Under the pieces are notes generated by a model that saw only the letters and a program-made list of their open reading frames with translations, made no database searches and was not told the origin of the DNA. A DNA stretch of 64,000 nt, taken from NCBI GenBank assembly GCA_902798745.1, contig CADBXM010000004.1:1-64000 (forward strand), given 5' to 3'. Position 1 is the stretch's first letter, and each line of letters opens with the position of its first letter. Position numbers and translations under genes: made by a program. Origin of the DNA: an uncultured Eubacteriales bacterium. GTDB taxonomy: Bacteria > Bacillota > Clostridia > Peptostreptococcales > Anaerovoracaceae. Below are positions 1,223-64,000 of the stretch, in pieces.

Positions 1223-2623
1223 CTAATTACGTATTACCTGAACTCCTTGCGGCGTATCCTTGAGAGTGATGCCCATCGCGGCAAGCTGGTCTCTGATCTC
1301 GTCAGCGCGAGCCCAGTTCTTTTCTTTACGAGCAGCCTGTCTCTCGTCGATCAGTGCCTGTATGTCATCTCCGAGGCCTTCCTCTTCATCCTCTCCGCTG
1401 AATATACCGAGCACATCGGTAAGCTCCTTGATCCTGGCGAGAGCCTCCTTAGCGAATGACTTCGAAGCTCCATCCTTTACATCGAGGTTGATCTCCGATA
1501 CCAGTTCGAAGATCGCCGCGATACCGTCAGCTGTATTGAGGTCGTCGTCCATCACTTCGATGAACTTCTCTTTGAACTTATCGAGGGAAGCGATCTTGTC
1601 AGCTTCTGCCTCCATCGGTTCATCCGTACCGTTCTGGATCAGGAACTCGAGAGTCTCGATCGCTGTCGCTATTCTCTCATAGCCCTGCTTGGACTGCTCC
1701 ATAAGAGTGTCAGAGAAGTTGATCGGGCTTCTGTAGTGGCCGCTTAGCAGGAAGAATCTGATAACGTCTCCGCTGTACTGCTCACGGATGTCTCTTACCG
1801 TAAAGAAGTTGCCGAGCGACTTGGACATCTTCTTTCCGTCCACATTGATGTATCCGTTATGCATCCAGTAGTGCGCGAAAGGCACTCCGTTGCAAGCTTC
1901 GGACTGAGCTATCTCGTTCTCGTGATGAGGGAATGTGAGATCCTGTCCGCCGCCGTGGATGTCGATAGTGTCGCCGAGGTGCTTCTTTGCCATGGTCGAG
2001 CACTCGATATGCCAACCCGGTCTTCCCATGCCCCATGGTGATTCCCAAGCTATCTCAGATTCCTCTTTACGAGCCTTCCAAAGCGCGAAGTCGAGCGGAT
2101 CCTCTTTTACCTCGCCGATCGCGATACGAGCGCCGCTTTCGAGGTCATCGATGTTCTGTCCGGAGAGCTTGCCGTATTCAGGGAACTTACGTGTCGAATA
2201 GTAGACATCTCCGTCCGCCTCGTACGCGTAACCCTTGTCGATCAGAGTCTGAACGAAAGCGATGATCTCAGGGATATGTTCGGACACCTTAGGATGCACA
2301 TCAGCCTTGAGCACATTGAGTGCCTCCGCGTCATTGAAGTACTCCTTGATATACTTCTCGGATACCTCAGGAGCAGTGATGCCTTCCTCCTTGGCTCTGT
2401 TGATGATCTTGTCATCCACGTCAGTGAAGTTCTGAACGAACTTTACTTCGTATCCTCTGAATTTGAAATACCTTCTGAGCGTATCGAATACGACAAAAGG
2501 CCTGGCGTTTCCAATATGGAAAAAGTTATATACCGTTGGACCGCAGACATACATTCTGACTTTGCCCGGTTCGATAGGTACAAATTCTTCTTTCCTGTTT
2601 GTGAGCGTATTATAGACTTGCAT
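1223..2623 (-). CDS. cysS: cysteinyl-tRNA synthetase
   Basis: Class I aminoacyl-tRNA synthetase that charges tRNA-Cys. The 466-residue length is typical. The zinc ligand Cys27 sits in VCGPTVYN, the HIGH signature reads HIGN at 36-39, and the KMSKS loop ([10 protein letters not shown]) falls near residue 265. The WHIECS and [15 protein letters not shown] zinc-site segments are intact, and a C-terminal DALR-like helical domain follows. It lies 51 bp downstream of the chromate-transporter pair on the same strand. I looked for a T-box leader in the short upstream gap and found none, so expression probably depends on an upstream or simple promoter. Confidence 0.97.
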
Positions 2624-2674
2624 TAAAAAGTCCCTCCAATATTTTTTCAGTTATTATCTTTCACATTTACTACG

Positions 2675-3286
2675 TTATGATACACCAAGTACGGCTCCGA
2701 TGCACCCCATTATCAGCAGAACGGCGAACGGACTTTTCTTGAACTTAGCCACCAGCACAACGGTCACGATTAGTATAAGGACCGAGATGATATCTACCGG
2801 CGAGTTCTGAAGGAATCCGATCAGTCCCGACCCTTCGGCAGCGCCTATCATCTTTGCGAGTCCGGTCCCGAGTCTCCCCTCTCCGGCAATGGACGGGACA
2901 GCCAGGATGACCACAGCTGAAGCGACAAGGCCTATCGTTATCGGTCTTATGCCCTGTATGGCCCCGTTCACCACTATGCTGTTTCTGAATTTCTGTATAG
3001 CCCGGGCGACTATGCTTACCAGTATGAAGGTAGGAAGTATTACGCCGAACGATGCCGTCAAAGCTCCGGCCAGGCCGGCTGATTCATACCCTACATAAGT
3101 TGCAGTATTCAGCGAGACCGGGCCCGGGGTGATCTGGGCTATCGCGACTATGTTCGCGAAGGCCTCGGGACTCATATCGATGAACGGCTGTACGCTGTCG
3201 TATATGAGTCTGACTATCGCAAGGCCGCCACCGTATCCGAGCAGCCCTACTTTCGCGAATGCGATAAAGAGGTTCCAGTAGATCAC
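2675..3286 (-). CDS. chromate/CHR-family transporter, second half
   Basis: Membrane protein of 203 residues belonging to the CHR (ChrA) family in its short, two-gene form. The N-terminus carries the family pattern AFAKVGLLGYGGGLAIVRLIYD, then the ITPGPVSLNTATYVGY segment that is the hallmark of CHR domains, then about five hydrophobic helices. Its start overlaps the stop of the preceding CHR gene by four bases (ATGA), indicating translational coupling and a heteromeric transporter. Known CHR proteins move chromate (sometimes sulfate). The true substrate in an anaerobe with no chromium context is unknown. Confidence 0.88.
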   Translation of the reverse strand: MIYWNLFIAFAKVGLLGYGGGLAIVRLIYDSVQPFIDMSPEAFANIVAIAQITPGPVSLNTATYVGYESAGLAGALTASFGVILPTFILVSIVARAIQKFRNSIVVNGAIQGIRPITIGLVASAVVILAVPSIAGEGRLGTGLAKMIGAAEGSGLIGFLQNSPVDIISVLILIVTVVLVAKFKKSPFAVLLIMGCIGAVLGVS

Positions 3287-3855
3287 TTCGGATCACCTCC
3301 CTCTTCATCTTTTTTTATCCTTTTGCTTCCGACCAGCGCGCTCGCAATGCCGAGCACCAGAAAGATAAGGATAACGTAAGCTGTGTTGATATCGAATACG
3401 ATTATCATCACAAAACTCGCTACCGCGGATAATACCGCCCATTTATTCTTGATGGCAACCGGAGCAAGCTGGAATATCGCTACTGCGATAAGTCCGAGCG
3501 CGGTAGCTCTCAGTGCCGCCATTGCTCCCTTAATGACACTATTATCCCCGGCAAAGGATATTGCCCTCGCCATGATGAGTATCAGTACAAATGATGGGAG
3601 CACGACCCCGATAGTGGAGACCACCGAGCCTGCAAAGCCTTTCTTCTTATAGCCCACATATGTCGCCATATTAACGGCTATGACGCCCGGCAGGCTTTGC
3701 GTTACCGCGACCACGTCCATGAATTCTTCTTCCGTGAACCACTTCTTTTCTTCGATCAGTGTGTTCTGGAGAAGCGGAAGCATGGCAACACCGCCGCCTA
3801 TGGTGAAGGCGCCGAGTTTAAAGAATACTATGAACAGTTCAAGCAGCATATTCAT
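3283..3855 (-). CDS. chromate/CHR-family transporter, first half
   Basis: CHR-family membrane protein of 190 residues. It shows FFKLGAFTIGGGVAMLPLLQ near the N-terminus, VTQSLPGVIAVNMATYVGYKKKG as the second family signature, and several hydrophobic segments ending in a charged KRIKKDEE tail. It pairs with the downstream partner at 2675-3286, and the overlapping ATGA shows that they are translated together. The two are homologous to each other, as expected for the split short-chain CHR architecture, so this is not a frameshifted long ChrA. A GGAAG motif precedes the ATG. The proS terminator lies immediately upstream. Confidence 0.88.
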   Translation of the reverse strand: MNMLLELFIVFFKLGAFTIGGGVAMLPLLQNTLIEEKKWFTEEEFMDVVAVTQSLPGVIAVNMATYVGYKKKGFAGSVVSTIGVVLPSFVLILIMARAISFAGDNSVIKGAMAALRATALGLIAVAIFQLAPVAIKNKWAVLSAVASFVMIIVFDINTAYVILIFLVLGIASALVGSKRIKKDEEGGDPK

Positions 3856-14401: not shown

Positions 14402-15319
14402 TTAGAGAGCCAGTTCTACCGGATCCCAGCCTTCATCCTGATACTTGGTAACAGCGAGCCCGTTGGTCTTTACGTAATCAGCAAGGCCCTGAGCTCTCAG
14501 AGCTTCACGAGCATCGGAGTCACCATTGATCTCAGTGAACTTATCGTAGTCATCTCCGAAGATCTCCTTTGCGGATGGCTCGAAGTCTCCGCCGTCCTTC
14601 ACCCCTTCAAAGTCGACAACTTTGTAAGTGTCTCCATCCTTGGCAACGTGTGCCATGCCAGGGTGCGAACCGCCGGATACACACTCAAGTGTATCTCCGT
14701 TGATCTTATAATTGTAAACCCAGAAGTCGCCGCTGATATGAGTGTCTCCGTCCTCGCCTTCCTCTGTCTTGATGATCGATACAACAGGTACGCTTACGAT
14801 GTCTGTCTTGTCATCAGGTCCGTATTCTGAAGCAACATCCTCTGCGAGGTACTGCCAAACAGCACACTCTACAGGATCCTGTCCCATATAGCCCCACTGA
14901 GTTCCGATGTCCGGAGCTCCATCGTCCGGCCCTAATTCACCAGGCCTTACGAAAATGAGACTAACGCCGATAACTTTCGCGGAAATAGTTCCATCGCCAT
15001 TATCCGTAAATTTCAGCTTTGTGTCGCCCTTGGTCTTGAATCCCTCATCTGTCAGTTCCCAGGTGATGTCCGAAACCTCATCTTCTTCGCCTACCACCTG
15101 CGATACGAACCGGCCTGTGCCGTCGCCGTTCAGTGTAAGTGTGTATGTACCATCTCCATCAAGTTCTCCGGCTTCATCACCTACAGCTACTGACTGAGCG
15201 ACCCAGTCGCCTACGAATTGGCTGTCCGAAAGATCTGCGCCGCTATTGCTTCCGCAAGCTGCAAGAGTAAATGTGAGCACCATAGCGAGACTGAGCAATA
15301 ATGCGAGTTTCTTTTTCAT
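14402..15319 (-). CDS. secreted lipoprotein of unknown function
   Basis: A 305-residue protein with a classic lipoprotein signal: MKKKLALLL, a hydrophobic stretch, then the lipobox LAAC near residue 22, followed by a GSNSGADLS linker. The mature part is acidic and begins with a lipocalin-like or DUF-type beta segment (FVGDWVAQSVAVGDEAGE, GTYTLTLNGDGTGRF) that is often seen in clostridial lipoproteins of unknown role. The C-terminal part shows no motif I can name. AAGGAGG precedes the ATG. A 20-bp perfect palindrome lies about 71-90 bases upstream, suggesting specific repression. It converges with radA and has no operon partner. Confidence 0.85.
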   Translation of the reverse strand: MKKKLALLLSLAMVLTFTLAACGSNSGADLSDSQFVGDWVAQSVAVGDEAGELDGDGTYTLTLNGDGTGRFVSQVVGEEDEVSDITWELTDEGFKTKGDTKLKFTDNGDGTISAKVIGVSLIFVRPGELGPDDGAPDIGTQWGYMGQDPVECAVWQYLAEDVASEYGPDDKTDIVSVPVVSIIKTEEGEDGDTHISGDFWVYNYKINGDTLECVSGGSHPGMAHVAKDGDTYKVVDFEGVKDGGDFEPSAKEIFGDDYDKFTEINGDSDAREALRAQGLADYVKTNGLAVTKYQDEGWDPVELAL

Positions 15320-15389
15320 GTTTCACTTCCTCCTTAAGCATTAAACGATTCAATTGTTACCCATCTATACTATAGCCCAAAAACGCATA

Positions 15390-15409
15390 TTAATAAACCG
15401 GTTTATTAA
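15390..15409. promoter_or_regulatory. 20-bp perfect palindrome upstream of lipoprotein gene
   Basis: TTAATAAACCGGTTTATTAA is a perfect palindrome sitting just upstream of a TATAGT-like -10 on the minus strand. The position fits an operator overlapping the -35 region of the lipoprotein promoter. The cognate regulator is not identifiable here. Confidence 0.6.
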
Positions 15410-15470
15410 AATCCCATGACAAAAACGAGGATTCGACGGGCTTTTATTGTTGTTTTGTCGGAATAAGAAG

Positions 15471-15497
15471 AGCCCTTTTCCCGAACAGAAAAGGGCT
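15471..15497. terminator. hairpin terminator after EF-G paralogue
   Basis: Perfect 10-bp stem AGCCCTTTTC/GAAAAGGGCT (15471-15480, 15488-15497), followed on the minus strand by CTTCTTATT. It ends the EF-G-like gene, although the T-run is weak. Confidence 0.65.
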
Positions 15498-15540
15498 CAT
15501 TTCTATAAAACTGATTTGATCAAAGCAGAAAGCTTTCGAT

Positions 15541-17481
15541 TTATTTCTCTTCCTGACTTGCCTTGTATGCAGCGATAACCTTATCTGCGAGGTTGCTTGG
15601 AAGCTCTGCGTATCTTGCGAACTCGATGTCGAAGGAGCCTCTTGCCTGAGTCATCGATCTGAGCGCGATAGCGTAGTCGAATGTCTCCGCCTGAGGTACC
15701 TCAGCGTGAAGTGTGGATCCACCTGTTACAGGGTCCATACCGAGAACAACGCCTCTTCTGTTAGGGAGGTCGCCCATTACAGCGCCTACATACTGCTCAG
15801 GAACAGTGATGTCGAGCTTCATGATAGGCTCGAGCAGGCATGGCTTAGCCTCTACGATACCCTTCTTGAACGCGAGCGAAGCAGCGATCTTGAAGGATAC
15901 TTCGTTGGAGTCTACTTCGTGATAAGAACCGTCATAGAGAACTGCCTTGATGTTCTGTACTTTGCAGCCTGCGAGAGGTCCCTTGTCCATGCACTCGAGA
16001 AGTCCCTTCTCAACTGCAGGAACGTAGTTCTTAGGAACTGATCCGCCGAAGAGCTCTTCGCTGAATTCGAGTCCTTCCTCCTGGGATGGGCTGAATCTGA
16101 TATGTACATCACCGTACTGTCCTGCACCACCGGACTGCTTCTTGTGCTTACCCTGAACATCGGAGTTGCCCTTGATGGTCTCTCTGTAAGCGATCTTCTG
16201 AGGAACCACATTTACGCTGACTCCGTATCTGTCTTTGAGCTTAGCCTGGATGATACCGAGCTGGATGTCTCCCTGGCCGCCGAGCAGAGTCTGATGTGTT
16301 TCAGCGTTTCTCTCGAGCACGAATGTAGGATCTTCTTCCATGAGTCTGGAGAGGCCCTGTGCCATCTTCTCGTCCTCGTTCTTGTCAGCAGCTTCTACCG
16401 CGACGAAGTAGCAAGGGTTAGGGAAGTTGATAGGCTCGATGGTTACCTGCTTAGCTTTGCTGCAGAGTGTATCGCCTGTCTTTGTGTTCTGGAGCTTGCC
16501 GAGAGCTACGAGGTCGCCGGCAGCTACTGTATCTGTGTTCTCCTGGCTCTTTCCTCTTACGAAGAAGATGGATCCGAGCTTCTCAGCCTTTTCTGAACGT
16601 GGGTTGTACACATCGCTTCCGGACTTGAGTGTGCCGGATACAACCTTGGCGTATGAGATCTTGCCGAGGAACGGGTCTGCGAGTGTCTTGAAAATGAAGA
16701 GTACCAGATCGCCGTTTGGATCGCATTTGATCTCGATGTCATTGCCATCTGCATCCTTTGCCTTTGTGACTACTGTCTCAGGCTTTGGAACGTATTTGCA
16801 AAGAGCGTCGAGTGCTTCCTCAACTCCGTCGCCTGTAAGGCTGCAGACCTTGAGGATAGGCATGATGTCGCCATTGTGGATTCCTGTTGCGAGTCCGTTT
16901 GCGAACTCCTCATCTGTGAACTCTTCACCCTCGAAGAACTTCTCCATGAGCTCTTCGTCTGCGCTGGCTACTGCCTCATTGAGAGCATCCTTGTCTTCGA
17001 GTGTGACGCATGCTGTTCCGAACTTGTCCTGAAGCTCGGAGATAACTCCGTCTACATCGATGTTGTCCTTATCAGTTTTGCTGATCAGGAAGAATGTCGG
17101 GGCGTTGTATTCTTTTACGAGATCCCAAGCTTTCTCTGTACCTACCTGGATGCCCGAGGAAGCGTCTACCATGATGATCGCTGTAGCGCCTGTCGAAAGA
17201 GCAGCTCTTGCCTCTCCTGCGAAGTCGAAGAATCCCGGTGTGTCGATGAAGTTGAGTTTTGTGCCGTTATACTCAACAGGCACGAGTGTCTGGTTGATGG
17301 TGTATCCCTTTTCGATCTCCATCTTTTCGTAGTCGGATACTGTGTTGCCATCCTCTACCTTGCCCAGTCTGCTGATGACTTTTGTCTTCAGCAGACCCGC
17401 TTCAAGGAAGGTGGTCTTGCCTGTGCCGCCATGTCCGAGCAGCACGATGTTACGGATCTTGTCGCTTGAATAGCCTTTCAT
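15541..17481 (-). CDS. elongation factor G-like GTPase (EF-G2 type)
   Basis: Translational GTPase of 646 residues, shorter than canonical EF-G (about 690). The P-loop reads GHGGTGKT (16-23) instead of the GHVDHGKT/S of true EF-G, which marks the EF-G2 branch. DTPGFFDF is the switch-II region and SKTDKDN the base-recognition motif. Domains II-V follow, with the domain V segment GVVLGMDPVTGG present. EF-G2 proteins are usually non-essential and their exact role is unsettled. The ATG at 17481 is preceded by AGGAGG, so I reject a longer frame starting at 17547. The gene lies 98 bp downstream of asnS and may be co-transcribed with it. Confidence 0.92.
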   Translation of the reverse strand: MKGYSSDKIRNIVLLGHGGTGKTTFLEAGLLKTKVISRLGKVEDGNTVSDYEKMEIEKGYTINQTLVPVEYNGTKLNFIDTPGFFDFAGEARAALSTGATAIIMVDASSGIQVGTEKAWDLVKEYNAPTFFLISKTDKDNIDVDGVISELQDKFGTACVTLEDKDALNEAVASADEELMEKFFEGEEFTDEEFANGLATGIHNGDIMPILKVCSLTGDGVEEALDALCKYVPKPETVVTKAKDADGNDIEIKCDPNGDLVLFIFKTLADPFLGKISYAKVVSGTLKSGSDVYNPRSEKAEKLGSIFFVRGKSQENTDTVAAGDLVALGKLQNTKTGDTLCSKAKQVTIEPINFPNPCYFVAVEAADKNEDEKMAQGLSRLMEEDPTFVLERNAETHQTLLGGQGDIQLGIIQAKLKDRYGVSVNVVPQKIAYRETIKGNSDVQGKHKKQSGGAGQYGDVHIRFSPSQEEGLEFSEELFGGSVPKNYVPAVEKGLLECMDKGPLAGCKVQNIKAVLYDGSYHEVDSNEVSFKIAASLAFKKGIVEAKPCLLEPIMKLDITVPEQYVGAVMGDLPNRRGVVLGMDPVTGGSTLHAEVPQAETFDYAIALRSMTQARGSFDIEFARYAELPSNLADKVIAAYKASQEEK

Positions 17482-33532: not shown

Positions 33533-34711
33533 TTACCTGAGCCCGGACGCCATCATCATTATGTTGAACACGTCCTCCGTACCGAGCACTTTGAAGTTGC
33601 CGATCGTACGCCCGTCATTGAAAGTGGTTCCGAGCGCCACCTTGCGACATGCCTCTTCATCGAAATCAAGGCCGAGTCCTTTGATGTCGGTCGGCATCCC
33701 TATCGAGCGGAAGAATTCTTCGAATTTCTCGATAGTCTTCACAGGGTCGCTTTCACCAAACACAGCCTCGCCGAGAGCGGAGAACCTCTCAGGCCCTTCA
33801 GGCAACACATATCTTGCCCATGAGCCCCAGATAGCCGCGAGGCCCGCTCCGTGAGCTACATCGTACTCTGCAGAGATCTCATGCTCCATCTGGTGGCAAG
33901 ACCAGTCGCCCATATTGGCATTGCCCGCCTCCATAAGACCGTTGTGGGAAAGGCTGCCGGCCCACATGAGATTGGCTCTGGCGTCATAGTCGTCAGGTTT
34001 CTCAAGCGCGACAGGAGTCCATTCGACAACATTGCGAACAAGAGCATATGAGAGCTCATCTGTGATATCGAGAGCATATCCCTGATGGAAATATCTCTCG
34101 AATGTATGCATTATGATGTCGGTCGATCCGCATGCCGTCTGATAAGCCGGCACTGTAGCGGTGAGCATAGGATCAAGAAGTGAAAACTTTACGCGACCGA
34201 AGTCGGTCTTGACTCCGAGTTTGTAGATGGTCTCCGGATCATCATCGTTGGTGATGACTGAAGAGTTGCTCATCTCAGAACCCGTAGCCGAAAGGGTGAG
34301 CACGCAACCGACCGGCTCTATTCCCTTGACGCTCCTCTTTCCGCAATAGAAGTCCCATACATCGCCGCCGCCATAAACTCCGTAGCCGATGGCTTTGGAG
34401 CTGTCGAGCACCGAACCGCCGCCTACCGAGAGGATAAAGTCACAGCCTTCTTTTTTATACAGTTCCACGCCTTCACGCACGAGAGATACTCTCGGATTAG
34501 GCACTACGCCCCCAAGCTCAACATGAGCGATGCCCTCTTCATCAAGACGGGCTTTGACTCTGTCGAGCAGGCCGCTCCTTACGACAGAGCCGCCACCGTA
34601 GTGGATCAATACTTTAGTGGCTCCGTGCTCTTTAAGGACTTTGCCTGCGAGGTCTTCAGCGCCTTCACCGAAATATACATGTGTAGGCGTATAATATTCT
34701 TTGACTGCCAT
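33533..34711 (-). CDS. iron-containing alcohol dehydrogenase
   Basis: A 392-residue enzyme of the Fe-ADH (group III) family, most like NADH-dependent butanol dehydrogenases. The cofactor loop is SVGGGSVLDSSKAIGYG, and the metal-site segments HTFERYFHQGY and CHQMEHEISAEYDVAHGAGLA are visible. The ATG at 34711 has GGAGA upstream, so a frame opening at 34780 inside the MFS gene is rejected. It follows the GPH carrier by 19 bp, so the pair may use the same sugar-derived aldehyde, though this is inference. Confidence 0.92.
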   Translation of the reverse strand: MAVKEYYTPTHVYFGEGAEDLAGKVLKEHGATKVLIHYGGGSVVRSGLLDRVKARLDEEGIAHVELGGVVPNPRVSLVREGVELYKKEGCDFILSVGGGSVLDSSKAIGYGVYGGGDVWDFYCGKRSVKGIEPVGCVLTLSATGSEMSNSSVITNDDDPETIYKLGVKTDFGRVKFSLLDPMLTATVPAYQTACGSTDIIMHTFERYFHQGYALDITDELSYALVRNVVEWTPVALEKPDDYDARANLMWAGSLSHNGLMEAGNANMGDWSCHQMEHEISAEYDVAHGAGLAAIWGSWARYVLPEGPERFSALGEAVFGESDPVKTIEKFEEFFRSIGMPTDIKGLGLDFDEEACRKVALGTTFNDGRTIGNFKVLGTEDVFNIMMMASGLR

Positions 34712-34730
34712 ATAGTTAATTCTCCATTTG

Positions 34731-36221
34731 CTACTCAACGTTTTTGAGTCCTGCGTTCTTCTTGCTCCAGAGGTTCTCATAATCGAAGCCTGTTACCTTC
34801 TTGAGGATGGCCTTCTCTTCCTCTGTAGTTACGCTGTTGTCCTCACCTTTGCGACGGGCTACTTCTGTCTGGACCAGCTTGAATTCCTTGTCAGTAACAG
34901 GGAATGCCAGAGCGCAGATGAGAAGCAGTGCCGAGAGGATCGCAGGAGCAAGTACGAAGCAGATGCCGATGCCATGCTGTGTTGCGGCTGACTGCTCGAG
35001 ACCCTGGCTAGCAAGCGCCTCGTTGTAGTGAACTGCCGACAGCATGAATCCGATGATGGCTACAGAGAGACCCGAAGCGATCTTTCTGATGAATGTAGCC
35101 ATGCTGGATACGATTCCCGGTCTTCTTACTGATGTTATAAGCTCATCGATATCTGTCATATCCGCCATGATAGCAAAGATTCCTGTGAGTGAACCGGCGT
35201 TGCCGAGTCCGATCAGAGCCGCGAGCAGCAGGATCGGAATGAGCGGGGCTCCGTGGTGCGAGAACGCGAGGAGTCCGAGAACACCTACCAATCTGACAGG
35301 AGCAGCGATCACGATGGCCATCTTCTTGGAAGTCTTGCTCATGACAGGCCCAAAGATGAGCATTCCCACGAGCTGAGCGACCATCAGTACGCCAAGGATC
35401 GGAATGTAGTAGCTTGGATATGCACCAAGAGCGTGCTGTACATAGTAAACGGCCATGCCGGAGATGAAGTCCATCCCGCCCTGTCCGAAGAGGTAGAGCC
35501 CCAGGAAGATCAGGAACGAGCGGCTCCTGAATACGGACGCTGCCTGTGTGAAGCTCTCACCGAGTGTAGTCTTTACAGGTTCCTTCTGCTTTTCCCAAGT
35601 GCCGAAGAACACCGTGATCGAGCATGCGAAGAAGATAACACCGAAGATCAGAGCGCATGTCATGTACTGGGAAGGCTCGTTGGTCTGCTTGATGATCATG
35701 CCCGGAACGAGTCCGCAGATAGCAGCTCCGAGTGTTGAGAAGATCATCCTCATGTTGGAGAACTTCGCTCTCATAGCGTAGTCGTCCATCATATCAGGAA
35801 GCAATCCGTTATACGGTACGCTGAGCACCGTGAATCCCGTGTTGAAGAGGCAGTACATCACGACATAGAATATGTAATTTGCTGTCATCGATGACGAGTG
35901 GATGTCTATCCACATAACCACAAACAGCACAGCTGAAGCGATACTGCCTACCAAGATATAGAATCTTTTAGCGCCGTATTTCGACTTGGTCCTCTCTACG
36001 ATGTTGCCCATGATCGGGTCGGTGATCGCGTCCCAGATCTTTCCTATCATAGGGATGGTGCCGGCAAGCGCTGCGTTCATTCCGACCGCGTCTGTAAGGA
36101 ACACGATGAAGAACGCGTTGATGATAACGAAGCAACCGCCACCGAAGATCTCGCCGATACCATAAGTGAGTCTGTTAAAGAACCCATATTTCGGCGTTCT
36201 GCCTGCAATTTCTTCCTTCAT
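34731..36221 (-). CDS. GPH-family sugar:cation symporter
   Basis: A 496-residue carrier with about twelve helices. The N-terminal RLTYGIGEIFGGGCFVIINAFFIVFLTDAVG and the loop IMGNIVERTKSKYGAKRFYILVG match the glycoside-pentoside-hexuronide family. The later PYNGLLPDMMDDYAMRAKFSNMRM matches its PYxAL-x-PELTxDYxER-like hallmark. The C-terminal cytoplasmic region (DKEFKLVQTEVARRKGED) is typical. AGGGAAG precedes the ATG. The iron alcohol dehydrogenase follows. The substrate is unknown. Confidence 0.92.
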   Translation of the reverse strand: MKEEIAGRTPKYGFFNRLTYGIGEIFGGGCFVIINAFFIVFLTDAVGMNAALAGTIPMIGKIWDAITDPIMGNIVERTKSKYGAKRFYILVGSIASAVLFVVMWIDIHSSSMTANYIFYVVMYCLFNTGFTVLSVPYNGLLPDMMDDYAMRAKFSNMRMIFSTLGAAICGLVPGMIIKQTNEPSQYMTCALIFGVIFFACSITVFFGTWEKQKEPVKTTLGESFTQAASVFRSRSFLIFLGLYLFGQGGMDFISGMAVYYVQHALGAYPSYYIPILGVLMVAQLVGMLIFGPVMSKTSKKMAIVIAAPVRLVGVLGLLAFSHHGAPLIPILLLAALIGLGNAGSLTGIFAIMADMTDIDELITSVRRPGIVSSMATFIRKIASGLSVAIIGFMLSAVHYNEALASQGLEQSAATQHGIGICFVLAPAILSALLLICALAFPVTDKEFKLVQTEVARRKGEDNSVTTEEEKAILKKVTGFDYENLWSKKNAGLKNVE

Positions 36222-57663: not shown

Positions 57664-57766
57664 ATTAGCTTCTCCCTGCAAATTGGAATTTGTAAGAATC
57701 TATTTTAGTATAGCATACTAATATCCGAGCGTTTAACTTCCGAACTGATTCCAGGGAACATGTCAC

Positions 57767-58042
57767 TTTTGTCACGTCTTTTCAGTCGATTTCAAGAAAA
57801 AGCGTGAATTTTGTCACGTCTATCTTTAAAAAGCACACTAGAAGCATGACGAAGTTTCATAAAGAGAGTTGAAAAAACAGCTGGATTACGGCTTTATTCA
57901 CGAGAGTGGATATTATTTCATAGATTTATCTGATATTATCCAAGAATCATTGATTTCGGAGGTTCTCGCAAATCAATGAGTTGCCTTGCGGTCACGCTTG
58001 TATGTTGAAATAAGGAGCGGAGACGTGACAAATATCACGTCT
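57767..58042. repeat. TCACGTCT repeat cluster in a gene-free stretch
   Basis: TTTTGTCACGTCT occurs exactly twice in direct orientation (57767-57779, 57809-57821). Its reverse complement AGACGTGACAAA lies at 58021-58032, followed at once by TCACGTCT, so that 58021-58042 is AGACGTGA-six bases-TCACGTCT. The stretch 57664-58294 otherwise contains no convincing gene. The opposed copies at the two ends suggest either a small inverted-repeat element or a regulator-binding cluster. Confidence 0.75.
57947..57979. repeat. perfect 10-bp hairpin inside the repeat cluster
   Basis: TCATTGATTT and AAATCAATGA (57947-57956, 57970-57979) with a 13-base loop CGGAGGTTCTCGC. There is no T-run, so it is probably not a terminator. 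Confidence 0.8.
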
Positions 58043-58141
58043 ATTCAGGGAAAAACGGAAATTTGCGTGACCGAAGGAGCGTATTATTATACATTTGCTT
58101 TGAGTATGACAACCATTGGTACAATATGTCGGAAAGATAAA

Positions 58142-58170
58142 GGCGCGATCCGCATTATGCAGATCACGCC
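58142..58170 (-). terminator. terminator belonging to the displaced gene end
   Basis: The minus strand reads GGCGTGATCTGC-ATAAT-GCGGATCGCGCC, fully paired if G-T is allowed, followed by TTTATCTTT. It now serves the KAP gene. Confidence 0.75.
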
Positions 58171-58216
58171 TTAATTTATTGTTTTGATAATTCCCTTTCC
58201 GGGGAGTTTGCCAGTA

Positions 58217-58285
58217 CTAGTACAGCTTCGCGCCTGCCGGGATCCTGTCATCTACTAGCAGGAGGTTGAGCATCTCCCCGCCGTC
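58217..58285 (-). pseudogene. displaced last 22 codons of a tRNA-binding protein gene
   Basis: The minus strand encodes 22 residues, DGGEMLNLLLVDDRIP then AGAKLY and a TAG stop. This matches 21 of 22 residues at the end of the gene at 60752-61174. Four of the five base differences are silent, so the copy was under coding selection until recently. It has no start of its own and directly follows the KAP stop codon. It reads as the old gene end pushed aside by an insertion. Confidence 0.88.
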
Positions 58286-58294
58286 CATAATCGT

Positions 58295-59461
58295 TTATTG
58301 AGAAATATTCTCATGCCCGTATTGTGTCTCAATTACTTCATTTGTCTTTTCTATCGCAGAAGCCTTTTGTGGTGCTTTGTCATATATGTCGGTCATTTCC
58401 TCCAAATATCTCTCGCTGTCCCAGATGCCGCTCTCGATCCATTCGCGCTCGGCTTCTGTCATCAGCTCCGGGGAGTACTTCGAATAGAGCTGCTTGATAT
58501 CACTGTCATCGATTTCCAGTGTATGCTCCCCGTTTTTGTAGATTCCGCTCTTCGAAGCAAGGAAGAACGCAAGGAAGGAATACAGGCATCCATCTGGGAC
58601 CTCCAGTCCTTGGCTATCCATATGATAGTAGATGCGGAAGAAACTCTCTAAACCTTTCGTTAGACTGCGTAAATTGTGACACTTGGCGTTATTTCTCGAA
58701 ATAATGCCTTTCGCTGTTATGTCATCTTCGGATATGAACGCATCCAGGACCAGAGCCTCGCGCTCTGCCAAAAACTCTGCGTACTCCGGTGACGGCCACG
58801 TCCTTTCGCTTATGATCGAATGGACGATCGAAGAATAGTCAGGGATATGATAGATTGACTGAGATACCGTTTTCTCCCTGAGCATGTGATATGTGGCGTC
58901 GTCCATTTCCATCTTTTTTATGAAGAATTCTTCATTTGCCGAGATGATCGTATTGAAATTGCTGTTCTCACAGTAGTCGTTGATAACGCCAAGCAGCTCC
59001 AACGGATTCATGTTGGTCCTCTCAAAGTCATCGTACACAAGGACTACACGTTTTTTTTCGTGTGCCCTGATATCCTCGATCTCGTTCTTTATAGGGAGAA
59101 GATCGAGCGCGTTCACCGAAGTCATGACATTGCCGGCACTGCCCGCGATCGGATTAATGACTCTGATCACTCCGTTGAGAGCCGTCCAGAATCCCTTTGT
59201 ATTTTCCTTGGCCCTTTTTAGTGTCCCCAGGAGAGGCAGGCAGGCTTCAAACCACTTCTGTCTTACGCTGTCCTGCAGATCCTTCTGATCGTTCATGCCG
59301 AACAGTGATACTTTGACTATGATATGCGTGTCCTTCAGAGCCCCAGCCAGGTCTTTCTCGATCAGATATGTCTTACCGCAGCCCCATTCTCCCAGAAGCA
59401 GCATGGCGCCCACAGGGTCGTCTTCGTTGCAATAATGGATGAGTTCACTTAATGTGCTCAT
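58295..59461 (-). CDS. KAP-type P-loop NTPase
   Basis: A 388-residue protein. Walker A is GEWGCGKT (24-31) in a KAP-like context. Walker B is VVLVYDDFERTN with Asp144-Asp145, and the sensor-like TIISANEE follows. There is no obvious pair of transmembrane helices in the usual KAP insert between the Walker motifs, although INPIAGSAGNVMTSVNAL is mildly hydrophobic. KAP NTPases occur in plasmid and defence contexts. I start at ATG 59461, eight bases after AGGAGG. The stop codon falls inside the duplicated gene end, and the promoter region contains a pair of inverted repeats. Function unknown; defence is an inference from family and location. Confidence 0.8.
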   Translation of the reverse strand: MSTLSELIHYCNEDDPVGAMLLLGEWGCGKTYLIEKDLAGALKDTHIIVKVSLFGMNDQKDLQDSVRQKWFEACLPLLGTLKRAKENTKGFWTALNGVIRVINPIAGSAGNVMTSVNALDLLPIKNEIEDIRAHEKKRVVLVYDDFERTNMNPLELLGVINDYCENSNFNTIISANEEFFIKKMEMDDATYHMLREKTVSQSIYHIPDYSSIVHSIISERTWPSPEYAEFLAEREALVLDAFISEDDITAKGIISRNNAKCHNLRSLTKGLESFFRIYYHMDSQGLEVPDGCLYSFLAFFLASKSGIYKNGEHTLEIDDSDIKQLYSKYSPELMTEAEREWIESGIWDSERYLEEMTDIYDKAPQKASAIEKTNEVIETQYGHENISQ

Positions 59462-59497
59462 AAGCGTCCTCCTTTTTTTCTTTATCATCTATGGGTG

Positions 59498-59571
59498 CTG
59501 TACGCATATTGCGAATTAATAATACCACCCGAAGCATATAGGGTAGTCCCTCGGGGTAATATGCGGTACAG
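59498..59571 (-). promoter_or_regulatory. KAP-gene promoter flanked by inverted repeats
   Basis: An extended -10 TGGTATTAT lies at 59527-59519 on the minus strand. On the plus strand CTGTACGCATATTGC (59498-59512) and GTAATATGCGGTACAG (59556-59571) are near-perfect inverted copies, one on each side of the -10, and could bind a regulator. Confidence 0.5.
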
Positions 59572-59662
59572 TCAGTAACTAAAAATCTCCCGGCTCTACC
59601 ACCTTTCAGTAAAAAAACCATGTCGGAAGGTATTACGCGATGGAGTCGCTGATGATCGTATT

Positions 59663-60388
59663 TTATCTATCGAAATTAAAATAATAGTAGAATTTCGTTT
59701 TATCCGGACCCTCTAATAGAACATTTGCATCCAATGCTTTGTACTTTTTGGTGAATGAGATCGCTTTTCCTTTTTTTATCTTGCTCTTTAGCTTACTGAT
59801 GTTGACCGGTTCAAAAACGTCGCGCTTCTTGAACTTTTCGCCACTGGCTTTGATAATCTTCCAACCCTTCTCAGGAACGACCTTTATAGTGATGCTTGTT
59901 TTCCTTTTGCTGCATTTTGAAATGTACTGGTATCTTTTGCTTCCCTTTAAAGATACTTTCTTGCCGTTTATTTTAATGCTCTTTATAGGATTCGGATAAT
60001 CAACTATAGTGACCGTGTTATTTATGGTCTTTATTTTGCCCTTGACTTTGTAATTGATGCTTAATGTCACTTCTCCGGGCTTCTTGCCCTTGAGATAGTA
60101 TAAATAATGTTTCCCGCCTCTGTGCTTCCATCCATATTCCTTTCTGACTTTGGCCATGGATGGATCACTTAATGTGACGCTATTGATGTTCATTACATCG
60201 GTTGCGTCTTCAAGCACGATCTGACCTTCTTCACCTACATAGATCTGGTCCATAACCGGGGTGGCGGAACCACGTACAGATGAAGTTACACCATACGCGC
60301 TTGCTTCTCCGGTACCGAAAACCAGCATACCAAAAGCGACAATGACCGTTATCGCAAGCGACATCACCCTCTGAAATCCTCTACCCAT
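59663..60388 (-). CDS. secreted protein of unknown function (Ig-like fold possible)
   Basis: A 241-residue exported protein with a signal peptide (LAITVIVAFGMLVFG, cleavage near ASA). The mature part is lysine-rich and beta-strand-like: KGKKPGEVTLSINYKVKGKIKTINNTVTIVDY resembles a bacterial Ig-like (BIG_2) domain, followed by an unplaced 100-residue C-terminal part. There is no cell-wall anchor. AGGAGG precedes the ATG. A perfect 24-bp palindrome lies 46-69 bases upstream. It shares the island with the KAP NTPase. Confidence 0.7.
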   Translation of the reverse strand: MGRGFQRVMSLAITVIVAFGMLVFGTGEASAYGVTSSVRGSATPVMDQIYVGEEGQIVLEDATDVMNINSVTLSDPSMAKVRKEYGWKHRGGKHYLYYLKGKKPGEVTLSINYKVKGKIKTINNTVTIVDYPNPIKSIKINGKKVSLKGSKRYQYISKCSKRKTSITIKVVPEKGWKIIKASGEKFKKRDVFEPVNISKLKSKIKKGKAISFTKKYKALDANVLLEGPDKTKFYYYFNFDR

Positions 60389-60433
60389 TTATTCACCCTC
60401 CTAGTTTCTTCTTTGATCCGCATTTAGCTCTAC

Positions 60434-60457
60434 GCAATTCGAAATGTTTCGAATTGC
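60434..60457. promoter_or_regulatory. 24-bp perfect palindrome
   Basis: GCAATTCGAAA-TG-TTTCGAATTGC: two 11-bp arms around a two-base centre, upstream of the secreted-protein gene. It is probably an operator, because a stem with such a short loop is a poor RNA hairpin. Confidence 0.65.
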
Positions 60458-60662
60458 ACACATACATTTCAACGGTACCTGAAGATCGTTTTATCGTGCA
60501 CCTGAGCAAATCTTTCACCTAATAATAGCAAACCTGAACAATTAATAACAACTTGTCGAAACAGAGTGTTCCCTAAAAATCACATGTCTCCGCGATGGAG
60601 GTGCGATTACTGCTCACATCTTTCATAGCGACTCCTTTGTTTTCGCAATTGAGAAAATCAAA

Positions 60663-60705
60663 GCAAAGAAAAGGGCATAATCTGCCGCATATAGCAAATC
60701 ATGCC
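60663..60705 (-). terminator. terminator of the tRNA-binding gene
   Basis: The minus strand reads GGCATGATTTGC paired with GCAGATTATGCC (G-T allowed), then CCTTTTCTTTGC. It is homologous to the hairpin at 58142-58170. Confidence 0.8.
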
Positions 60706-60751
60706 TTGATTGATTGTTTAGATAATTCCCTGTCCGGGGAATTTGCTGGTA

Positions 60752-61174
60752 CTAGTACAACTTCGCGCCTGCTGGGATCCTGTCGTCTACGAGCAGGAGG
60801 TTGAGCATCTCCTCGCCGTCATACTCGTTGACTGCGCTGATCAGCATTCCGTTGGAGTACTCTCCCATCATCTTTCTCGGAGGAAGGTTCACGATCGCTA
60901 TCGCAGTCTTTCCAACGAGTTCAGAAGGATCGTAGTACTTCTTGATACCGCTGAGGATCACTCTGTCCTCGCCGGATCCGTCGTTCAGGACGAACTTCAG
61001 CAGCTTGTCAGACTTCTTCACTTCTTCACAGCTCTTGATCTTGACTGCTCTGAAATCCGACTTGCTGAATGTATCGAAGTCCACTTCCTCTTCAAAGAGT
61101 GGCTCTACCTTGACCTTGCTGAAATCGATCTCGACGCGCTCTTTCTTGGCTCCGCCCTTGCCTTCCGGCTTCAT
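60752..61174 (-). CDS. free-standing tRNA-binding (MetRS C-terminal/Trbp111-like) protein
   Basis: A 140-residue OB-fold protein. FSKSDFRAVKIKSCEEVKKSDKLLKFVLNDGSGEDRVILSGIKKYYDPSELVGKTAIAIVNL is the EMAP-II/Trbp111 tRNA-binding core, and the protein ends IPAGAKLY. The opening MKPEGKGGAKKERVEIDF resembles the linker before this domain in methionyl-tRNA synthetase, so the gene looks like a detached MetRS C-terminus. The ATG has no Shine-Dalgarno sequence. A promoter TTGTGA-17-TATACT would start transcription at about the A of the ATG, so the message may be leaderless. Its last 22 codons are duplicated at 58217-58285. Confidence 0.88.
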   Translation of the reverse strand: MKPEGKGGAKKERVEIDFSKVKVEPLFEEEVDFDTFSKSDFRAVKIKSCEEVKKSDKLLKFVLNDGSGEDRVILSGIKKYYDPSELVGKTAIAIVNLPPRKMMGEYSNGMLISAVNEYDGEEMLNLLLVDDRIPAGAKLY

Positions 61175-61181
61175 TGTCGGG

Positions 61182-61210
61182 AGTATAATACCTATGAGTT
61201 ATTATCACAA
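61182..61210 (-). promoter_or_regulatory. promoter giving a near-leaderless transcript; overlapping rightward -10
   Basis: On the minus strand TTGTGA (61210-61205), a 17-bp spacer and TATACT (61187-61182), only seven bases from the ATG. The same bases read TATAAT on the plus strand at 61184-61189, so a divergent rightward promoter for the 17-codon frame is possible. Confidence 0.6.
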
Positions 61211-61284: not shown

Positions 61285-61346
61285 CCATTTTACCACGCAC
61301 CAGCCCGGTGGGGTAGTAAACGGGGTAAAATGGGGTAGTATTTTTA
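61285..61346 (+). terminator. stem-loop with GGGG repeats after the 17-codon frame
   Basis: Perfect 10-bp stem CCATTTTACC/GGTAAAATGG (61285-61294, 61324-61333) enclosing CACC..GGTG, followed by GGTAGTATTTTTAAT. Three GGGG runs (about 61309, 61322 and 61332) occur within it. It could be a terminator for a short rightward RNA or part of a structured small RNA. Confidence 0.6.
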
Positions 61347-61397: not shown

Positions 61398-61997
61398 TTA
61401 GCCGAAACTAAACGGAAGATTGTTCTGCGTAGCGAAGGTATTAAACGCAGCTTTAACATCCGCAGCCTTTTCTGGGATGTTCTCCTGTGCATACTCTATT
61501 GTAGCATTAGCTATTGCTTTCGCCTTATCTCCAAGAATCTCAGCACCCTTAGCACCATGTTCTACCGCTAGCTTATAAGCTTCAGTTGACAAAGCACAAC
61601 CTACCATACCACCAACAATTGTCCCTGCTCCTGGCATAACAGCGGTACCAACTGCTGCACCCGCCATATATCCACCATAACCTGCTGCCTTCTCTCCCAG
61701 TTGATATGCAACTTCAGACAACTCCATTTCGCCTCTGAAGTATGCGGATCCAACTTCAACTGTTTTTATTCCCATGGCAATTCCCTCTGCCGGTATGCCA
61801 ATCGACGAAGCAGATTGTAGCAGTTCGCTTCCAGTTTTTTCTGCTAATATTGATATCCCCTTTTCTGCTGAACCAATGCCAAATCCGATAAAAGCTCCTT
61901 TTCCTGAATCCTTGGCGGTGTTTTCTACCATCTCTTCAGCGGTTATTTCCCCCACTGAGAATTTCGAATAATTTTCAACGGCAGAATCTACGCACAT
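61398..61997 (-). CDS. orphan glycine-rich protein, possibly a fragment
   Basis: A 199-residue protein. The middle section GYGGYMAGAAVGTAVMPGAGTIVGGMVGCALSTEAYKLAVEHGAKG is a glycine-zipper-like hydrophobic stretch that could insert in membranes. The rest is helical and rich in Ala. The ATG has no ribosome binding site and an in-frame TGA lies eight codons upstream, so the 5' part of a larger gene may be lost. Base composition is clearly AT-richer than the neighbours. I do not recognise the family. Similar segments occur in colicin-like and other toxin or effector proteins, but that is only a resemblance. Confidence 0.5.
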   Translation of the reverse strand: MCVDSAVENYSKFSVGEITAEEMVENTAKDSGKGAFIGFGIGSAEKGISILAEKTGSELLQSASSIGIPAEGIAMGIKTVEVGSAYFRGEMELSEVAYQLGEKAAGYGGYMAGAAVGTAVMPGAGTIVGGMVGCALSTEAYKLAVEHGAKGAEILGDKAKAIANATIEYAQENIPEKAADVKAAFNTFATQNNLPFSFG

Positions 61998-62127: not shown

Positions 62128-62964
62128 CTACAACTGATACATTTTTCTCTCCCCGGGGCTTATCTGCGTGATGTAATCATATGCCGTTCCTTCCCGTTTA
62201 TAATTAGCGTGATCCATTTCGGCAAATATGAGTCTCTCATCGAGGATCTCTTTGTCCATGTCATCTACCGGACTGCTGAGCAGTTCCACTGACGGTTCAT
62301 ACAGACCCGACCTGCCTGTGTACTCGAACTTATCGTCATTGCCGGTAAAGTTGCAGTATGCCACCGGAACAGAATTCTCTACTGCTCTGATCAGTGAGAA
62401 ACGAGCATGCAGCCTGTGGAACGGCGCCATGTTGGCAGCGATGCATACGATGAGATCCGCGCCTTTTACCGCAAGCCTCCTTGCAGGTTCCGGAAATTCT
62501 ATGTCATAACATATCAGCATCCCTATCCTGCCTATATCCGTGTCGAATACCGGATAACCGGATCCGGGAGTAAAATTCTCTTTTTCTCCTTCGAACAGTC
62601 TGGTCTTGGCGTATGTGCCCTTGAGCCTCCCTTCACTGTCTATTAAGTTAGCGCTGTTATATATCTTTCCGTTCCTTGATTCAGGATACCCGTATATCAC
62701 ATTGATTCTGTTTTCCGTGGCAAATTTTGCCATTGTTTCAAAGGAAGGGCCATCGGCGGTCTCGCATACCGACCGGAGTCGTTCACCGGCTTCATACCCG
62801 GCAATATACATCTCCGGGAACACAACAAGTATAGCCCCGCCTGCTGCAGCTGCCTTTACTGCCTCCGCGGCTCTTTTGAGATTATGCTCCCTGCCCTGTT
62901 TGTCCGAGGTCGTCTGAACCAGACAGATCCTGAACTTATTCGGTGTGTTTCTTTCCGTATACAT
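62128..62964 (-). CDS. nitrilase-superfamily carbon-nitrogen hydrolase
   Basis: A 278-residue amidase-type enzyme. The Glu-Lys-Cys triad is visible as Glu51 (VFPEMYIAG), Lys120 (YAKTRLFEGE) and Cys152 (LICYDIEFPEP). It probably hydrolyses a small amide or nitrile. The closest branches are omega-amidase and N-carbamoyl hydrolases, and I cannot choose between them. The start overlaps the end of the upstream GPH symporter by 29 bases, so the two are co-translated and the carrier may import the substrate. Confidence 0.92.
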   Translation of the reverse strand: MYTERNTPNKFRICLVQTTSDKQGREHNLKRAAEAVKAAAAGGAILVVFPEMYIAGYEAGERLRSVCETADGPSFETMAKFATENRINVIYGYPESRNGKIYNSANLIDSEGRLKGTYAKTRLFEGEKENFTPGSGYPVFDTDIGRIGMLICYDIEFPEPARRLAVKGADLIVCIAANMAPFHRLHARFSLIRAVENSVPVAYCNFTGNDDKFEYTGRSGLYEPSVELLSSPVDDMDKEILDERLIFAEMDHANYKREGTAYDYITQISPGERKMYQL

Positions 62965-64000
62965 CTCTGAATCCCTTCATATCTACCTCGCCGCCGCTCC
63001 TCTTTACCTCAAGGGCAGCCATGATGTCCGTAAATCTCGATTCGTTTATCGGATACTTTATCATCAGCAACCCCACAAGTATCATAGCTGCTCCGGGTAT
63101 GAACGTGAAGCATGTGCTTATAGAGCTGAGTGCTGATGCAGTCTGTGCCTCTAGTGAAGCATCGAATCCACCGGACTCAAGAATGATGCCGAGCGCCTGT
63201 GAAGCGATCGCGACCGACAGTGATTCTGAAAGAGCCTGAAGCGATATCACCTGCCCTGAATGCTTTACCCCTGATGCCAACTCTTCTACCTCGCATGAAT
63301 CATAGATCATCGACGGCATCAACTGCCAGTAGCATGTGTTCCCGACGGAGTAGATCAGACATATGATGCATATGCCAACGAATGATCCAAGCGGCAAAAA
63401 ACGTCCAGTCATCATGATAAGGCCGGTAAGACCTATCCCGCCCGCAAAGATGGTTTTTTTGTCAGTCGCAGCGCTCAGCTTTGCGATGAACGGAGTAAAT
63501 ACTATGCCAGAGACTGTGATCAGCAGCATTATGAGAGATATCTGGCCCGCGCTGAGTCCGGCGTTATATGTAAAGAAGTACACTCTGTCCGACATGAAGA
63601 ATGTATTTGCCACAAGATAGAGGAGGCTCACACCAACTATATACTGGATAGGCCTGACTTTTATGATCTTCATGTAATCTCTTATTATGCTTCCAAAAAT
63701 GCTGAGATCAGGCCTGTTGCTGTATCCGTCCGGCTTTACGAAATCAGGATCATCACTCTCATGGATACCCAGCGCACAGATCAAGAGGGCTGCTCCACTT
63801 ATGATACCGACAATAAGTCCCATGACAGACCATGAGCTGTTCTGGCCCAGCCCCCCCTTCATAAGAAAATCGACCAGAATGGTGGGGACAACCATCCCGA
63901 GGGCCATGCCTACCTGATTGAACACGTAGGCATAAGATCTCAGCACGGTCCTTTCGTTATAATCTTCTGTCAGGTCCGATCCCCATGCCATGTAAGGCAC
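62936..64000 (-). CDS. GPH-family symporter, N-terminus outside the window
   Basis: The visible 354 residues begin with PYMAWGSDLTEDYNERTVLRSYAY, the hallmark that lies after the first third of GPH carriers. The real start is therefore beyond position 64000, and the GTG at the very edge is a chance codon. At least eight hydrophobic helices follow. The C-terminal tail ends VDMKGFRDVYGKKHTE. It is coupled to the nitrilase gene by overlap. Confidence 0.9.
   Translation of the reverse strand: MPYMAWGSDLTEDYNERTVLRSYAYVFNQVGMALGMVVPTILVDFLMKGGLGQNSSWSVMGLIVGIISGAALLICALGIHESDDPDFVKPDGYSNRPDLSIFGSIIRDYMKIIKVRPIQYIVGVSLLYLVANTFFMSDRVYFFTYNAGLSAGQISLIMLLITVSGIVFTPFIAKLSAATDKKTIFAGGIGLTGLIMMTGRFLPLGSFVGICIICLIYSVGNTCYWQLMPSMIYDSCEVEELASGVKHSGQVISLQALSESLSVAIASQALGIILESGGFDASLEAQTASALSSISTCFTFIPGAAMILVGLLMIKYPINESRFTDIMAALEVKRSGGEVDMKGFRDVYGKKHTE

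Follow-up and report, generated by a model that had tools for sequence, protein, structure and literature searches.

Which gene has left its end behind in this genome, and by what process? The 64,000 nucleotides analysed here (the window) are the start of a 121,314-base contig (C4, GenBank CADBXM010000004.1) of an uncultured Eubacteriales bacterium. A preliminary description, made from the window alone, had noticed a duplicated gene end in the same orientation on either side of the genes for a KAP NTPase and a secreted-type protein. We re-found this direct repeat: 58150-58285 and 60685-60820 are 88% identical over 136 bp, with a spacing of 2535, and each copy spans 22 codons, a stop and a terminator. 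Our recount also agrees on the five base differences in the 22 codons, by which four codons are silent and one is changed. The gene is lysS, encoding lysyl-tRNA synthetase (LysRS), and the locus is very likely an accretion of integrative elements that give LysRS new tRNA-binding tails by integrating inside the gene. Labels such as G034 and L147 are our own handles.

The lysS gene and its displaced ends

A search of the window's own genome returned a third copy of the repeat at C4:73744. It belongs to the real lysS gene (C4:73742-75691, reverse strand), which lies outside the window and encodes LysRS with an appended tRNA_bind domain, 649 aa in all. The assignment of this 649-aa open reading frame (ORF) comes from the PF01588 match of the tail copy and from the fused LysRS of the relative G034, which scores above the LysRS cut-off. 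The greA gene is directly upstream, the same as in Vescimonas and Collinsella.

Judged from its sequence, the ORF at 60752-61174 (reverse strand) is the cast-off last 140 codons of lysS with their TAG (c1), and not the intact tRNA-binding gene that was first described; since the full gene lies 12.6 kb away, outside the window, the tail could not have been recognised there. The ORF matches PF01588 and has 99% amino-acid identity to lysS and 92% DNA identity over 429 bp, with the homology extending over 60754-61182. Its 420 coding bases contain 35 differences, 31 of them at third codon positions, and one amino-acid change results. The oldest displaced end (c2, 58217-58285, reverse strand) consists of the last 22 codons and TAG, with DNA homology over 58219-58295. 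According to the repeat comparison, the terminator regions behind c1 (60685-60751) and c2 (58150-58216), both on the reverse strand, are common to these two ends and not to the real lysS end.

The 3' ends of lysS are three in number (the present end, c1 and c2), all in one orientation with cargo between them. What had been taken for a single island between two gene ends is two stacked inserts: one with the KAP gene between c1 and c2, and island A, the 12.6 kb between the present lysS end and c1. The earlier idea of integration at the 3' end of a gene with a supplied, diverged end holds for the insertion in the 3' part and for the diverged replacement, but it had the wrong gene in view, as the target is the distant lysS.

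An artefact of assembly or binning of a metagenome genome is hardly conceivable as the explanation. Several tails do lie at contig ends, and one, in G031, is probably a lysS split between two contigs and was dropped; however, the three tails of the window's genome are all inside one 121-kb contig, and further assemblies, among them G301 (3 contigs), show the pattern too.

A common break point, empty sites and integrases

In relatives, the start of most displaced tails falls on a single core, TCCCNNNNATGA (in most cases TCCCNACNATGA), at the border between LysRS proper and the domain. This start is present in 19 of the 20 tabulated displaced tails, some with TGT instead of NAC. The table leaves out c2, G012, G017, G031, G038, G075, G125, G169, G204, G236, G248, L145, L150, L185, L186 and the first copies in G096 and G147, which are truncated, interrupted, at contig edges or were not looked at further. 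The break point in the genus reads TCCC(GAC/TGT)-N-ATGAA. Compared with a test core of TTCCCNACNATGA, the window's genome has TTCCCGACAATGA in lysS and CTCCCGACAATGA at the far end of the island, with 12 of 13 bases repeated; the junction of island sequence with the displaced tail, a putative attR core ACTCCCGACAATGAAGC, was located by pattern search at 61168-61184 (reverse strand). The pattern ACTCCCNNNAATGAARC matched in nine of 47 genus genomes, eight times at tail junctions and once (G013) at an unrelated place, and the reversed-pattern control matched in none. The junction in G015 is one base off the pattern and was therefore missed by this search.

Detached lysS tails with a break at codon 508 are found in the window's genome and in G034, G036, G015, G018, G029, G039, G026 and G023. 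Truncated detached tails in G012 and G017 bring the count to 11 of the 47 genus genomes, and the short displaced end of G021, where one short lysS end was exchanged for another, brings it to 12; pieces at contig edges (G027, G031, G038, G041C73, G046) were not counted. Ten genomes were inspected for the end of their LysRS because they have no close domain match. In nine of them (G001, G003, G021, G022, G024, G025, G030, G032, G045) LysRS ends at the break point (~515 aa), with core identities of 81-92%. The tenth, G002, has a different C-terminal extension behind the same core, in an open frame of 756 aa, which we take to be HD-domain-like, and other domains may be added at this point of lysS in the same way. 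At E<=1e-30 the domain is matched in 99 of 296 genomes, and 30 of 92 genera, of the family sample. In 19 of the 20 tabulated tails the reading frame stays open up to the natural end, also in G023 and G039, whose internal deletions are in frame, and displaced tails might be made as free tRNA-binding proteins.

The preliminary description had proposed a comparison with relatives, where one uninterrupted gene would mark an empty site and both copies in all relatives would point to an old duplication. We found one uninterrupted lysS in G013, G044 and G217. In G013 and G044 a gene string lies within 80 bp of lysS, and the same string follows the displaced tail in G034 (at 135 bp) and G012 (at 337 bp). 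The clearest pair is offered by the fused lysS of G217 and the lysS of G301, which ends in ...LFPTMKTKDEKNA followed by a stop, with the domain 31 kb downstream. Positions 1-2086 of G217 correspond to 1280-3367 of G301 at 92.5% identity, and 2074-2599 to 34278-34804 at 95.8%; these blocks share a 13-bp overlap, TCCCGACGATGAA, which reads TCCCGACAATGAA in lysS of G301. The displaced domain of G301 is 100% identical to the domain of G217 over 139 aa, the cores are 98% identical, and LysRS of G301 passes the LysRS model without a tRNA_bind match. By this comparison a 31-kb integrative and conjugative element (ICE) split lysS of G301, and its LysRS lost the domain. The DNA behind the domain aligns between G301 and G217 for ~100 bp, and by protein comparison the flank genes of G301 are absent behind lysS in five relatives. 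G183 (broken contigs) is similar to G301: its short LysRS stands at the end of one contig, and its domain is detached. Behind this domain comes a gene for a class II synthetase (asnS by eye), to which a gene downstream of the fused lysS in G295 is 82% identical.

For the window itself, the relatives retrieved do not have the four proteins encoded behind c2 at the corresponding place after lysS, but only weak partial matches to them. As no native downstream genes could be placed for this lineage, an empty site of its own is not shown, and the case rests on G013/G044 and G217.

The truncation of several displaced tails (c2, G012, G017, G204) would agree with an old, decayed tandem duplication of lysS into which genes were inserted later. 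We consider this very improbable, as it is ruled out by the empty sites: relatives have one uninterrupted lysS with a matching flank (G013/G044; G217). Among the genus pieces, moreover, only those at contig edges (G038, G041C73, G046) reach upstream of the core, and nearly all differences between c1 and the present tail are silent.

G029 and G301 each encode, upstream of the displaced tail, a tyrosine integrase that has the Tn916 arm-binding domain (PF02920 + PF00589). A Tn916-type excisionase (PF09035) is present in G029, and integrase (Int) and excisionase (Xis) occur together in G029 and G026. The integrase table holds 40 tails, including L142, L182 and L183 at 38-48% identity, which are probably not lysS tails. 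Twenty-one (L142 among them) are stand-alone, begin within domain residues 1-16 and have at least 500 bases of upstream sequence, and for nine of these an Int homologue is located within 6 kb upstream: G029 (1.8 kb), G026 (4.8 kb), G301 (168 bp), G096, G252 (two tails), L148 (Lachnospiraceae), L177 (Coprococcus catus, partial match) and L184. Together with the Int before the short tail of G021, this gives ten tails in nine loci. Relatives of the lysS-type integrase (E<=1e-20) are present in 8 of the 47 genus genomes, 5 at at least 50% identity; for two integrases that are 69% identical to that of G029 (G018C15, G035C31), no core was found within 1.7 kb and 0.3 kb behind, respectively. The insert of G301 also encodes a VirD4 of the CD1115 family (over the cut-off), a TraG-type ATPase, a topoisomerase and an NlpC/P60-lysozyme protein, and to judge by these genes it is an ICE.

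Two side observations concern such inserts. Directly behind the displaced domain of G301 (L190 ~14990-15610) there are short ORFs that by eye resemble pieces of a group II intron reverse transcriptase. In L129, L108, L120 and L123, ICE-like left ends behind lysS have a common string of a ParA-like, a ParB-like and a large secreted-type protein of up to 1392 aa (labels by eye).

Of 25 genus loci with lysS, 14 have the repeats TACTACCCC/CTACCCCA behind its stop, and in G034, G036, G015 and G026 such repeats precede the displaced tail by 131-135 bp. Two TACTACCCC repeats in the window (61310-61318 and 61332-61340, reverse strand) are candidate arm-type sites of an integrase, 132 and 154 bp from the displaced tail. 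The far end of island A has the core and arm-like repeats, while the core in lysS is without them. We infer that these repeats are integrase arm sites. A 12-bp direct repeat with 11-bp spacing is found in the linker between core and domain of the fused LysRS, 58-67 bp after the core, in G204, which belongs to the window's family, and in G347, G420 and G543 of another family. In the domain-less, ICE-bearing lysS of G021 and G301, 10-bp repeats with 11-bp spacing lie 69-70 bp after the core, behind the stop. These six loci come from 67 rows examined without a shuffled control, and other repeats of 7-9 bases occur in many rows. The linker repeats suggest that the joint of core and domain was made from translated element DNA, with fusion by read-through of the element's arm-site region.

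Probable exchange of the domain between lineages

Two types of the domain, ~9% apart in protein, occur at these loci. In G034 and G029 type B is in lysS and type A is displaced, and in G036 and G026 it is the reverse; the alignments indicate that the types were exchanged in both directions. Among 15 chosen pairs, DNA identity steps at the core in G034/G044 (90-96% before, 76-89% after), G034/G039 (87-91% before, 87-95% after) and G018/G012 (90-96% before, 100% after), and there is no step between the window's genome (G000) and G010 or between G044 and G013. In a test with 25 taxa of the genus, the topology of the core is rejected by the domain, with a log-likelihood difference (dlnL) of 651 and a p-value of 1e-40 in the approximately unbiased test (p-AU).

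Over a wider range, domain similarity is uncoupled from core similarity: 61 LysRS have mean domain identities of 73-81% while core identity runs from 40 to 90%, and the correlation is 0.43, compared with 0.86-0.94 for core pieces. As this cross-phylum set was drawn partly by domain similarity, the comparison was repeated with genomes of the class drawn by the LysRS core from among the matches listed. This class sample comprised 23 proteins; G399 and G345, which have no domain, and G543, cut by a contig end, were excluded from the counts. The remaining 20 domain-bearing LysRS have a domain-core correlation of 0.10, against 0.62-0.80 for core pieces. G241 and a metagenome-assembled genome of Eggerthellaceae (L147) share 47% in the core and 89.5% in the domain, and Faecalicatena contorta (L154) and Adlercreutzia (L158), named strains of different phyla, share 52% and 87%.

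Strong constraint on a slow domain, and not transfer, would be another way to obtain so flat a similarity across lineages. Such a domain would keep a high identity at long distance, and 15 of the 19 other domains in the class sample are at 69-77% to that of the window. We regard constraint as a rather unlikely explanation, since pairs of the same genus can have a domain identity below that of the core (G243/G296: domain 65%, core 90%), cross-phylum domain pairs reach 87-90% and the tree conflict is strong. We infer instead that transfer of the elements is the main cause of the patchy distribution of the domain. We also lean towards a wider reading, in which the LysRS tRNA-binding domain of Clostridia and Coriobacteriia is itself a part of mobile elements, lies between the integrase core and the element interior and travels with ICEs across families and phyla, so that the architecture of LysRS (type A, type B, none) would be set by the last element integrated.

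In the mechanism that we propose, a circular element would carry the short core that is found in lysS (TCCCNACNATGA or, in some genomes, TCCCTGTNATGA), and a Tn916-type tyrosine integrase would recombine the two. In these hosts the core is not at the end of lysS, and the tRNA-binding domain of ~140 codons lies behind it. As the element would bring its own version of the sequence downstream of the core, lysS would be closed again with the element's tail and the old host tail pushed to the far side of the insert. Each element could leave a LysRS with another domain allele or without the domain. For the window, the likely order is that the KAP insert supplied c1 as the tail and displaced c2, and that island A, with cargo of fructoselysine and polyamine type, then supplied the present tail and displaced c1. 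The cut of c2 to 22 codons by a deletion would have come later, and the integrase would have been lost from both islands. What the window holds is an integrase-less remnant resembling a cis-mobilizable element (CIME).

Several observations weigh against integration by such elements. No integrase is matched in either window island, in agreement with the preliminary description, and no lysS-type integrase is matched in the window's own genome at E<=1e-20. For 12 of the 21 tails, including c1, G034 and G036, no Int is matched within 6 kb, in some cases because the contig stops short. The TACTACCCC/CTACCCCA repeats are absent in G013, G044, G010, G040, G008, G020C31, G009 and G007 (with <500 bases behind lysS in G007), and also in G017, G029C30, G023, G039 and on the lysS side of island A. 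The c2 junction is without the core, and in G029 and G026 lysS and the displaced tail are on different contigs. Three 140-codon core pieces used as controls also reject the tree of the rest (dlnL 56, 84, 90), far less than the domain does, so some recombination affects the whole gene. The junction-pattern search in the genus gave no case of a domain-less LysRS gaining the domain, IMG/VR gave no domain copies, no circular form of an element was seen, and most of the genomes compared are metagenome assemblies. Three unannotated, phage-labelled faecal contigs, L184, L185 and L186 (MT839044, MT838375, MT839316), have stand-alone copies of the LysRS domain, L184 with an integrase upstream; these contigs may be chromosomal.

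Plain homologous recombination, in which DNA, circular or linear, brings in a diverged lysS end by a single crossover and no dedicated recombinase takes part, would account for the islands and tails without an integrase, and the repeats are long (429 bp) and diverged. We nevertheless find it improbable, because the breakpoints are at the same core in different genera, the G301/G217 blocks overlap by just 13 bp at that core, and an Int homologue is upstream of ten tails in nine loci. Integration at the core remains our explanation for the inserts.

At first c2 had been read as what remains of an integration at the 3' end of the gene. As it does not start at the common core, later truncation is likelier: c2 is probably a displaced domain that was cut to 22 codons by deletion and inherited with the KAP gene. 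The window's genome and G017 have the same KAP/lysS junction at c2 (92% over 143 bp), and in G017 a gene 89% identical to the KAP NTPase of the window adjoins the displaced lysS end. It is possible, if doubtful, that another kind of element, carrying KAP, integrates close to the 3' terminus of lysS and that c2 is instead the trace of this second attachment site. The two genomes share the junction though their other cargo differs, and the stop codon and terminator are common to c1 and c2. However, the core is lacking at c2, the shared junction is explicable by joint inheritance with KAP, and other truncated tails break elsewhere (G012 at ~codon 620, G204 at ~codon 554), as random deletions would.

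Cargo of the inserts and comparison with known systems

The KAP P-loop NTPase (58295-59488; this and the following genes are on the reverse strand) matches PF07693 with an E-value of 3e-12. It also matches the candidate phage-defence profile PDC-S49 with 2e-36, although residues 16-372 fall on positions 13-325 of 624, half of the profile. The other gene of this insert (59663-60388) encodes a 241-aa protein with a signal-peptide-like N terminus (by eye), for which no Pfam match and no family was found. The last gene of island A before attR (61398-61997) encodes a 199-aa protein without a Pfam match and with a weak match to LeoB (E 0.002). Island A also encodes a nitrilase-type hydrolase (62128-62964, PF00795) and a GPH-type symporter (62936-64000, below the curated cut-off), and the island runs on beyond the window to lysS at C4:73742. 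In C4:64476-72847 there are fructoselysine 6-kinase-, 3-epimerase- and 6-phosphate deglycase-like proteins, a PotABCD-type ABC transporter and two GntR regulators. The matches of the fructoselysine-type and transporter proteins score below the curated cut-offs except for that to the PotA subfamily model, and the second GntR was assigned by comparison. Profile scans and reading by eye gave no conjugation module for the ORFs covered in the window's islands.

Two further observations were made beside the inserts. In G017:C135, between lysS and the displaced end, two TIR-like proteins (by eye) replace the secreted-type protein beside the KAP NTPase, a possible defence cargo. Behind c2, the intergenic sequence at 57749-58046 of the window contains three related repeats of 21-31 nt around GTCACGTCT, one pair of which is also inverted.

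The appended domains of aminoacyl-tRNA synthetases are usually treated as slow, vertical additions in evolution. The domain in question is the OB-fold tRNA-binding domain of Trbp111/MetRS type (PF01588), which the displaced tail matches; the fused LysRS of G034 matches the MetRS C-terminal model below the cut-off. Here it is attached to a bacterial LysRS, and mobile elements very likely exchange it. Prophage e14 and phage 21 at icd of E. coli integrate in a housekeeping gene and supply a slightly different 3' end, but that end is a short stretch with little change in the protein, whereas here a complete domain is swapped or lost. We found no report of a synthetase domain swapped or removed by such elements in the literature searched, mostly outside subscription papers.

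If our interpretation is right, an essential synthetase has an entire domain replaced or taken away in apparently one site-specific event, and the cast-off domains are stacked beside the gene. This would be a direct mechanism for patchy domain architectures of synthetases and would explain a tree conflict within one protein. G217 and G301, which differ by the domain, offer a natural experiment on its role.

The locus also links gut anaerobes to lysS-targeting elements of enterococci and streptococci. The enterococcal vanD islands and ICEs (Tn6711-Tn6713, ICEVREfm_vanD) carry an integrase gene and, in the 3' part of lysS, the 13-bp repeat TTCCC[g/a/c]AC[a/g]ATGA (PMC8301612, PMC10765050). That repeat is the same core as in lysS here, with the first T often another base at the displaced tails. 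The enterococcal repeat is 17 bp from the lysS end, while here a whole tRNA-binding domain lies behind it, so that integration replaces or removes the domain. Three streptococcal ICEs in lysS with ConjICESt3 modules have a tyrosine integrase and direct repeats of 13-17 bp (PMC4701971). The tyrosine integrase, the lysS target and the short direct repeats are shared with the present loci; a C-terminal domain downstream of the site, present here, is not mentioned in the available part of that article. CIMEs and tandem accretion of ICESt1 type, in which inserts without an integrase persist between att sites and pile up next to the target gene, are described in PMC5704250. The same stacking is seen here, with putative mobility for the window's islands, but it also layers successive alleles of a domain of an essential protein. 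The kind of element is known, and what appears to be new is the consequence, namely that it is the insertion of such an element that determines which domains an essential enzyme has.

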